Assembly: GCA_019057675.1 (NCBI GenBank)
Contig: JAHLWX010000010.1
Span: 1 to 35,823 of the forward strand
Reading direction: 5' to 3'
DNA: 35,823 nt
Origin: Candidatus Jordarchaeum sp. LHC_1308
GTDB taxonomy: Archaea; Asgardarchaeota; Jordiarchaeia; Jordiarchaeales; Freyrarchaeaceae
Below the pieces are notes generated by a model. The model had not been told where the DNA came from. It saw nothing but the letters and a program-made list of their open reading frames with translations, and searched no databases. Position 1 is the stretch's first letter. Each line of letters starts with the position of its first letter. The translations under genes and the position numbers were made by a program. Below, one piece after another: positions 30,518-33,854 of this stretch.

Positions 30518-30835
30518 TCACCCCTTCTGTTCCTTTTCCACTCTAAACAGTATGGCTGCACCTATCGCTGCTGCAACTATTGCTACGCCCTGGAACATTG
30601 TGTCAATGAGCCTCATCGACCACATGTAGACGCCTTCGTAGAACCCTATCTGGACCGCCGGAATCTCCGTTACGCTTACGTTTGGCATGAGTAAATCCAC
30701 GGTGTAAGCAAATACCTGGTATGAGAACGGGGTAAGCCACAGGGTTTTGACTAGAAACAGTGTAACCGCACCAGCCAAGACTATGCCTGAAAGTATCCTA
30801 GCAATTTTTAAAGCAAGTTTTCGCCTCTCACTCAA
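30518..30835 (-). CDS. NuoJ-like C-terminal part (separate small membrane protein)
   Basis: 105 aa membrane ORF between NuoJ-N-like and NuoK; 4-nt overlap with the upstream ORF. Confidence 0.65.
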   Translation of the reverse strand: MSERRKLALKIARILSGIVLAGAVTLFLVKTLWLTPFSYQVFAYTVDLLMPNVSVTEIPAVQIGFYEGVYMWSMRLIDTMFQGVAIVAAAIGAAILFRVEKEQKG

Positions 30836-31092
30836 TCCTCCTCACGCTCCACAGGTTCTTGGGCGACATTAATTGTTACTAGAAGAAGAACCGCTATGGC
30901 GCCTGCGAAAATCGCTAGTTGGAGCACTGCAACCCAAGGAGCGAAGAGCAAGTAGAAGAGGATCCCTAGTACTATGCACATGCCAGCAAATGAGACCACA
31001 GCATAGTCAAGGCGCTTAACCTCAACGGCAATCACTGCCAACACGGTGGCAAGGACTAAAAGCAAGCCGTGAAGAATAGTGGGATCCAACAT
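30832..31092 (-). CDS. NuoJ-like N-terminal part
   Basis: 86 aa; LDYAVVSFAGMCIVLGILFYLLFAPWVAVLQLAIFAGAIAVLLLVTINV fits NuoJ TM1-3. Confidence 0.7.
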   Translation of the reverse strand: MLDPTILHGLLLVLATVLAVIAVEVKRLDYAVVSFAGMCIVLGILFYLLFAPWVAVLQLAIFAGAIAVLLLVTINVAQEPVEREED

Positions 31093-31369
31093 TTGAAGTC
31101 GCCTCTCCTTTTAGAGATTTTTATTCGCAGTAACGGAAGAAGTTTGGAATACTCTCAATATTTAACTTTAACGTTTTTCAAGAACCTCCTCTACAAGGGG
31201 GAAGAGGTTGGTTTAAGGTTACTTGATGAAAATGCACGTTGGAGGGAGACCCATTAAAAGATAGATCATGGCGAAAAAGAGCAACGACACTTCTCCTAGA
31301 TTTAAAAGGGAAGATTTAAAGAGGAATAAAGTTAAATAGGTTTCTTTTTTTATTGGTAGTCTTGGCAGT

Positions 31370-31505
31370 GGGCCCCTAGCTCAGCCTGGTAGAGTCTGCG
31401 GCGCCATGAGCACCCGGTTCGCACCCGGGAGGCCGCGGGTGCCCCCTTAAGGGGCCGCGAATTCAAAACCCAAAACGGGTTGAGTAAATCCCGCGGGGTC
31501 CACCA
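31370..31505 (+). tRNA. tRNA-Ala(CGC) interrupted by three short introns
   Basis: Mature: GGGCCCC UA GCUC AGCCUGGUA GAGC A CCCGG UUCGCAC CCGGG AGGCC GCGGG UUCAAAU CCCGC GGGGUCC A CCA (77 nt). All stems pair; G3:U70 is the Ala identity pair. Introns approx 31395-31410, 31441-31462, 31465-31485. Confidence 0.9.
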
Positions 31506-31928: not shown

Positions 31929-33854
31929 GTGGGGATAGTGTACGGTTATGCTGGTAAGATCCTTATGGTTGACCTTTCAAAAGGAAAGGTCAAGAGTGTT
32001 AGGTTGAGCGAGACGCTCATCGAGTTTTTCCTCGGCGGATTAGGGGGAAACTTAAAGCTTGTATCGGAACTTACCGAGCGTTGGGTTAACCCATATTCTC
32101 CTGATGCTTCCTTAGTTTTTGGTGTTGGCCCGCTTGTTGGTACTATGGCGCCTGGAGCGGCAAAGGTTTCAGCAGTCTGTAAGTTCCCGTTAACGGAGAC
32201 TTATGGCTTTGCCTCTGGAGGTATCTTGTTCGGGCTAATGATGAAGGCGGCAGGCTACGATCACATTGTGGTTAAAGGGCGCGCTAGGAAGCCAGTATAC
32301 TTGGGCATTTTTGATGATGGCGTGGAGATTTTGGATGCAGGGGATCTCTGGGGACGGGATGTTTATGATGTCACAGGTGAGCTGCAGGGGCAGCATGGGC
32401 CATGTGGAGTCTTGACTATTGGAAGTGCTGGAGAAAAACTGGTTAGGTTTTCCGTTGCCGTAATGGATTCATGTTCAAGTCTTGGAAGGGGAGGGATGGG
32501 GGCTGTTATGGGATCCAAGAACTTGAAAGCAATTGTCGTTAGGGGAGAGAAAGGAGTGGAGGTGGCTGATGAGAAAACTTTTTCCAAGACAGCGGCAGCC
32601 ATTATTGAGGAGATATGCGGTAAGTCTCATTATGAAACATGGGTCAAATTCGGCTCGATGGCCTGTTGGGAGTTTAGAACAGGACTGATAAAGGCATGGC
32701 CGTGTGATGGCTGGAGGGGGCTTATGCCGGGAAAGGAAGCTGAGGCGTTGTTTGGGCCAAGAGTTTTCGTTGAAAAAGTTAAAGAGAAAACACTATCTTG
32801 TCCTTCATGTCCTGTCGGAGACAGACTCATCGCGAGATTTACCGGGGTAGAGGAAGGAAAGGTGTGCATGTCTCAGTTCTTCGGGCCTGCCTATGCTTTC
32901 GGGGTGCGTTGCAAGGTTGGTGACGGCGGGAGAATCGCCTACTGCTACTACCTAGCTAACAAGTATGGGATAGATTACACTACTTTGGCTTCCACCGTGG
33001 AGCTGGTCAGAGCTCTGAAAAAAAGAGGATACGTGAAGGATAAGTTTGGTGATGATGGCTTCGAGGAGACAGTAAATTTGATCCGCGCGATTTCCCTGAG
33101 GGAGGGGCTGGGCGGTATTTTGGCTGAGGGGCCTTTAAGGGCGGCGGAGAAGTTTGGTGGAGGCCTCCTCGAAGATGTAGTTAGCATTAAGGGCATGGAT
33201 CCTCCGCTTGACGGACGATTTAACTTTGGCACCGAGGCGTTCGAAGTAGTAGTTAACCCTATGGGAGGACACTATATCTCAGGATTTTCCTTAACATTCA
33301 TGGTTGGTGCCAGCGTTAACAAGCTAAAAAAGTTCTGCCGTCAAATAGGCGTTCCTGATGATGCAATCAGAAAGATATTCACACCTTACTTTAACGTTGC
33401 AAAGATGACGCGTTACGTTGAAGACTGGTACGCGCTTCTTTCATCGCTTGGCATCTGTTGTCGTCAACCAGTAGCTCAAGGGTATTCTGTGCCAGTCTTG
33501 GCTGAGCTTTACGCTTCAGCTACGGGAATAAAGATGCCGCCAAAGAAGCTCTTGAGGACAGGGGAGCGTGTTTGGAATCTTCTAAAATTACTTAACGCGC
33601 GAGAGGGATTTTCTAGGAAAGATGATGTTTTCCCCGAGCTATGGCTGAAGGAGCCGCTTAGTGGGGGCAAAATCACGATGACGCTCATGGATTATTATAG
33701 GAGTAGGAAAATAGGAGTTAATGAAGCCGAGAAACTCCTTGACGACTATTATGCGGAGCGAGGCTGGGATCTCGAGAGCGGGGTGCCAACTGAGAGCAAG
33801 CTTACTGAGCTGGAGCTGACGTCAACGGCTAGGAAAATGAGAGTCATAGAGTAG
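31929..33854 (+). CDS. Aldehyde:ferredoxin oxidoreductase family (tungstopterin), divergent
   Basis: YAGKILMVDLSKGKV, SSLGRGGMGAVMGSKNLKAIVVRG, CPSCPVGD, KYGIDYTTLAS, SLGICC. Confidence 0.93.
   Translation: MGIVYGYAGKILMVDLSKGKVKSVRLSETLIEFFLGGLGGNLKLVSELTERWVNPYSPDASLVFGVGPLVGTMAPGAAKVSAVCKFPLTETYGFASGGILFGLMMKAAGYDHIVVKGRARKPVYLGIFDDGVEILDAGDLWGRDVYDVTGELQGQHGPCGVLTIGSAGEKLVRFSVAVMDSCSSLGRGGMGAVMGSKNLKAIVVRGEKGVEVADEKTFSKTAAAIIEEICGKSHYETWVKFGSMACWEFRTGLIKAWPCDGWRGLMPGKEAEALFGPRVFVEKVKEKTLSCPSCPVGDRLIARFTGVEEGKVCMSQFFGPAYAFGVRCKVGDGGRIAYCYYLANKYGIDYTTLASTVELVRALKKRGYVKDKFGDDGFEETVNLIRAISLREGLGGILAEGPLRAAEKFGGGLLEDVVSIKGMDPPLDGRFNFGTEAFEVVVNPMGGHYISGFSLTFMVGASVNKLKKFCRQIGVPDDAIRKIFTPYFNVAKMTRYVEDWYALLSSLGICCRQPVAQGYSVPVLAELYASATGIKMPPKKLLRTGERVWNLLKLLNAREGFSRKDDVFPELWLKEPLSGGKITMTLMDYYRSRKIGVNEAEKLLDDYYAERGWDLESGVPTESKLTELELTSTARKMRVIE

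Follow-up and report, generated by a model that had tools for sequence, protein, structure and literature searches.

At positions 31370 to 31505 on the plus strand of the window analyzed here, a 35.8-kb stretch from a genome bin of 1.9 Mb (∼84% complete), lies a gene of 136 nt comprising a 77-nt tRNA and inserts of 16, 22, and 21 nt. It is flanked by two protein-coding genes that serve as synteny anchors: a divergent NuoJ-like gene upstream (30832..31092, minus strand) and a gene resembling aldehyde:ferredoxin oxidoreductase (AOR) downstream (31929..33854, plus strand; named by inspection). Both have the same arrangement in two genomes of the genus, G002 (QC4) and G003, with identities of 90–93% for the NuoJ-like and 78–79% for the AOR-like gene. 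A TATA-like box (AGTTAAATAG, 31330..31339, plus strand), read by eye in the sequence, precedes the 5′ end of the tRNA by ∼30–40 nt, and AT-rich boxes also precede the genes of relatives. The neighboring NuoL has 89% identity to Candidatus Jordarchaeia isolate QC4, and its next-best relatives are Jordarchaeia/Freyarchaeota; judged from sequence, the host belongs to the Asgard archaea (Jordarchaeia, a group also known as Freyarchaeia) and is not a crenarchaeon.

Removal of the three inserts, as proposed in an earlier note on this DNA, leaves a 77-nt form with an encoded CCA that ARAGORN calls as tRNA-Ala(cgc) with a full cloverleaf. The acceptor strands (GGGCCCC...GGGGUCC-ACCA) and the D-, anticodon (CGC), and T-stems are all intact, and the mature tRNA has a discriminator A and a G3:U70 pair, the latter being the alanine identity pair. 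The unspliced region receives no call from ARAGORN or Rfam in the window. An intron-aware parser requiring acceptor pairing, conserved tRNA positions, a CCA, and BHB-scored introns recovers exactly this gene with a score of 54.2, and nothing else reaches a score of 15 on either strand of the window or in three Markov-resampled windows, so that a three-intron gene arising by chance is not a credible explanation. The region is thus confirmed as a real tRNA-Ala(CGC) gene with three introns, two of them in the T-loop as the earlier note had read it. Only seven tRNAs pass the Rfam cut-off in the bin, which is expected if most of its tRNA genes are disrupted.

The central BHB helix has 4 of 4 base pairs at all three junctions. 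Exon 1 (31370..31392, tRNA positions 1–22), identical in the syntenic G003 gene, is followed by a 16-nt D-arm intron at 22/23 (31393..31408) with helix UGGU/GCCA and bulges AG↓A and UG↓A. An initial placement at ∼24/25 described the same cut shifted through a GAG duplication, and it is the 22/23 register that gives the 4-bp helix. Exon 2 (31409..31439, positions 23–53), delimited by the spliced-form tRNA call and alignment with relatives, contains the anticodon CGC, the variable loop, and the 5′ strand of the T-stem; no intron interrupts the canonical 37/38 site in the parsed gene, as had been noticed. The second intron (31440..31461, 22 nt) has the helix CGCG (positions 48–51)/CGCG, bulges GG↓U and AA↓U, and an inner hairpin GCCCC-CUUAA-GGGGC. 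It had been placed at ∼54/55 through an ambiguous U, but the copies in G002 and G003 begin with A, so that only a boundary at 53/54 restores the T-loop.

Only 5 nt of mature sequence, the micro-exon UUCAA (31462..31466, positions 54–58), separate this intron from the third, the upper value of the 2–5 nt spacing estimated earlier; the micro-exon is invariant in all five same-genus Ala genes with two T-loop introns. The third intron (31467..31487, 21 nt) has the bulges AA↓A and AA↓A and a central helix in which AUUC, or GUUC once intron 2 is spliced, pairs with GAGU. Its inner hairpin (ACCC/GGGU) is offset by one nucleotide and slightly degenerate here, with one A fewer than in relatives, and outer helices are weak or absent, making these relaxed motifs. 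Among equivalent cuts, 58/59 gives the full central helix and was chosen on that ground; some ambiguity exists within the range 56–60 first suggested for this intron, and 58/59 is the best placement. The equivalent 58/59 cut in the Ala(GGC) gene of G003 gives a loop UUCAAGU. Exon 4 (31488..31505, positions 59–76), taken from the spliced-form tRNA call, contains the 3′ strands of the T-stem and acceptor, the discriminator A, and the CCA. Self-splicing introns, including group I, were rejected as an explanation: there is no Rfam match at gathering score and the introns are only 16–22 nt long.

The locus and its Ala paralogs were compared in three genomes of the same genus (G001, G002, and G003) and four of the sister family (G004–G007). 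The syntenic Ala(CGC) gene of G003 has an identical mature 77-nt sequence and a 16-nt D-arm intron, and both of its T-loop sites are empty, which fixes the intron boundaries. This empty-site evidence covers the two T-loop introns; a 16-nt intron also occupies 22/23 in G001, G002, and G003. The CGC gene of G002 likewise has this mature sequence, and the UGC genes of G001 and G002 differ from it only in the wobble base of the anticodon (plus one CCA base in G001). Across these genes the exons are identical or nearly so, at intron identities of roughly 68–88%.

Such conservation bears on whether the locus could be a decaying pseudogene that keeps tRNA pieces by chance, a reading prompted by its invisibility to tRNA finders when unspliced. 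Despite divergence of the introns, all 77 exon positions match both the intron-poor syntenic ortholog and the CGC gene of G002, the four stems are intact, and a second intact tRNA-Ala(CGC), which according to the earlier note might be the functional copy, was looked for and not found in the ∼84% complete bin. We consider a pseudogene very improbable; the gene is, on this comparative evidence, very probably functional.

Both T-loop introns also occur in Ala(UGC) of G001, in Ala(CGC) and Ala(UGC) of G002, and in Ala(GGC) of G003, and neither occurs in Ala(UGC) of G003. In the sister family, an Ala gene of G007 has the 53/54 intron only, those of G005 and G006 have a 59/60 intron only, and G004 has both by inspection. 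In the G004 gene (G004:C422:1-400) the 3′ strand of the acceptor is missing where expected, which may reflect a further intron, an assembly error, or a pseudogene. The short spacing and the one nucleotide that the two motifs have in common might suggest a single nested, twintron-like insert with UUCAA belonging to the intron, and a nested BHB had been one of the initial ideas. However, a T-loop of 2 nt would result if all 48 nt between 53/54 and 58/59 were excised, whereas the first intron alone (G007), the second alone (G005 and G006), or neither (G003) each give the standard UUCAAAU loop. Since each T-loop intron stands alone in some relatives, they are adjacent independent introns, and the nested reading deserves almost no credence.

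The BHB motifs are themselves maintained across the five same-genus double-intron genes, with 96% of BHB cells paired compared with 29–53% when the partners are slid, and three BHB pairs change on both sides. The inner helix of intron 2 varies with its pairing kept, and that of intron 3 changes on both sides in relatives. A shuffle control for covariation, in which 36 of 500 shuffled sets score as high as the real one, is weak, as the alignment has just five related rows and many of its columns are invariant. As a separate observation, Ala anticodons differ at the syntenic nuo/AOR locus (CGC here and in G003, UGC in G002/QC4) and at a second Ala locus identified by eye from flank similarity (CGC in G002, UGC in G001 and G003), which suggests wobble-base switching or gene conversion among isoacceptors.

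Two EndA-family proteins are encoded in most of the Asgard genomes searched. Broad specificity in the EndA of Aeropyrum pernix is conferred by its Lys44 loop. The alpha protein of the genus has A. pernix EndA (3p1z) as its best match (163 bits) and keeps the catalytic Tyr, His, and Lys as well as a Lys in the Lys44 column; the beta protein, which is present in this bin, has an Ala in the His column. The genus is accordingly predicted, from these residues, to encode an EndA of the broad-specificity (alpha-beta)2 type with a catalytic alpha and a noncatalytic beta subunit, and the crenarchaeal-type enzyme anticipated in the earlier note was right in kind. EndA alpha and RtcB were not found in this bin (∼84% complete); alpha is present in same-genus genomes and RtcB is encoded in G001–G003, and we attribute the two gaps to incompleteness of the bin, reading both enzymes from the relatives.

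We therefore have high confidence in a functional tRNA-Ala(CGC) whose three BHB introns are removed by protein: the gene would be transcribed, an (alpha-beta)2-type broad-specificity endonuclease would cut the precursor at each BHB, and RtcB would rejoin the ends. The T-loop introns pose a particular problem for such a pathway as they flank the 5-nt micro-exon, and cutting at both simultaneously would free the 5-mer UUCAA. Either cutting and ligation would proceed successively, or the 5-mer would be held in place. UUCAA is common to both motifs, with U54 being the third nucleotide of the 3′ bulge of intron 2 and also paired in the helix of intron 3, so that both motifs are unlikely to be engaged at once. 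In addition, the last A of intron 2 forms one pair of the central helix of intron 3.

To estimate the order of removal, each central helix was constrained to form in every partly spliced precursor, and the free-energy cost was calculated with the protein ignored. Across the five same-genus Ala genes, the intron 3 helix costs 0.4–3.4 kcal/mol with intron 2 present and 2.8–10.1 kcal/mol without it, because the T-stem closes and an A-U pair becomes G-U when intron 2 is removed. The intron 2 helix costs 0.2–3.5 kcal/mol in any context. The trend is the same in four genes with the inner helices enforced. In the genes with a lone 59/60 intron (G005 and G006) the motif costs 1.3–1.6 kcal/mol with the closed T-stem as outer helix, indicating that the method does not simply penalize T-loop introns. 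With moderate confidence, the model energies place removal of intron 3 (58/59) before that of intron 2 (53/54) in this gene. A hand model with intron 2 leaving first, its removal restoring the T-stem, was discarded when the energy calculation pointed the opposite way.

Ordered splicing, as the earlier note had envisaged it, is plausible for the Ala genes, but the effect is absent from Asn genes with a similar intron pair. The same introns might instead be removed in any order, or with 53/54 first, by a broad-specificity EndA tolerant of relaxed motifs; with intron 2 gone and the T-stem closed, intron 3 would extend the loop and could still be cut. Three observations accord with such flexibility: little order dependence in the Asn genes that carry a 52/53 and 59/60 pair, the coexistence of the G005/G006 intron with a closed T-stem at low motif cost, and the fold lacking introns 1 and 2, in which the T-stem is closed and intron 3 sits in its loop. 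Set against this, each of the five same-genus Ala genes has a costlier 58/59 motif without intron 2. The increase is about 1–2 kcal/mol, a small effect, in Ala(GGC) of G003 and several kcal/mol in the other four. We regard removal in any order or 53/54 first as quite possible, if short of probable. The stricter proposal, that intron 3 must leave first because the two motifs share RNA, the last nucleotide of intron 2 contributing to the intron 3 helix while the T-stem is held open, can be advanced only tentatively. If intron 3 does have to leave first, UUCAA would be ligated to its two neighbors in succession, and only the final step would complete the T-loop and expose it to its universal modifications.

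T-arm intron pairs are not confined to the Ala(CGC) genes of this genus but are also found in Ala(UGC), Ala(GGC), Asn, and Ile genes. The tRNA-Asn(GUU) genes of G002 and G003 (minus strands) are interrupted at 22/23, 52/53, and 59/60, the two T-arm introns enclosing an exon of 7 nt. The tRNA-Ile(GAU) genes of this genome (G000:C6:24350-24700, minus strand) and of G001 (C14) have a T-arm pair at 53/54 and 59/60 around a 6-nt exon and appear to contain four introns each (D-arm, 37/38 region, 53/54, and 59/60), in a weaker parse scoring 42.9. Position 55 in these genes is C and not U; the Ile gene of G003 has one intron and U55. In G003 (C1 near 908 kb, plus strand), a candidate gene resembling tRNA-Met(CAU) may likewise contain four introns (weak parse, score 39).

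Single T-arm introns are frequent among the parsed genes. The double-intron T-arm was also searched for in 232 Asgard genomes with a covariance model, which gave strong matches only to the five known same-genus genes; since the model derives from a single T-stem sequence, its silence elsewhere says little. Most of its weak matches were Thr or Ala genes carrying one intron at 53/54. Ala and Thr tRNAs in distant families of Asgard archaea also have a T-loop intron at 53/54, and that of an Ala gene in G017 (C174) has the same CCGCGAA 3′ end. A consensus pattern of the D-arm, run in G000 and G003, was too noisy to serve as a tRNA inventory. One region of G007 (C13:4478-6484) holds a dense one-strand array of about a dozen tRNA hits, many of them intron-free and unlike the rest of that genome, which may be a mobile element, a virus, or a contaminant contig.

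The gene belongs to a known kind, but its layout is unusual. The heavy tRNA intron load of this lineage was already published in 2024: in complete genomes of Freyarchaeia, for which Jordarchaeia is a later name, and Atabeyarchaeia, introns occur in 92–95% of tRNA genes, over half of them with several, and often at noncanonical positions (PMC11291895). T-loop pairs, micro-exons, four-intron genes, and splicing order do not feature in the passages of that work considered here. Small noncanonical BHB introns, up to three per tRNA gene, and a broad-specificity (alpha-beta)2 EndA are likewise known from Thermoproteales such as Pyrobaculum and Thermofilum, and BHB introns of the T-loop have been described in archaea (PMC4033280, PMC6379350, PMC3218864); for Thermoproteales, three introns per gene is the maximum according to a review (PMC4033280). 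Here, in contrast, the host is an Asgard archaeon and a single T-loop holds two introns separated by a 5-nt micro-exon. We found no published example of this arrangement in a search that lay outside the intron tables for Thermoproteales (Sugahara 2007/2008; Fujishima 2010) and Supplementary Data 4 of PMC11291895, which may contain such pairs.

The tRNA-Ile(UAU) of Cyanidioschyzon merolae similarly has three BHB introns (12/13, 37/38, and 53/54), its T-arm intron being at the same 53/54 position, but it is a eukaryotic gene with one T-arm intron only and includes the canonical anticodon intron. Its splicing is ordered, the 53/54 intron leaving before the anticodon intron, and the former blocks formation of pseudouridine-55 by Pus4 (PMC9602550). 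By analogy, modification of positions 54–58 may also wait for splicing in the gene described here.

This gene thus shows that an Asgard archaeon can have a tRNA whose T-arm is divided by two introns enclosing an exon of 5 nt, which severely tests the ability of the tRNA endonuclease and RtcB to retain the fragments. Asgard archaea are the archaeal group closest to eukaryotes. Such genes are missed by common tRNA finders, so that tRNA counts of these genomes are biased. The relatives, with neither, either, or both introns in matching tRNA-Ala genes, form a ready series for the study of splicing order and of intron gain and loss.
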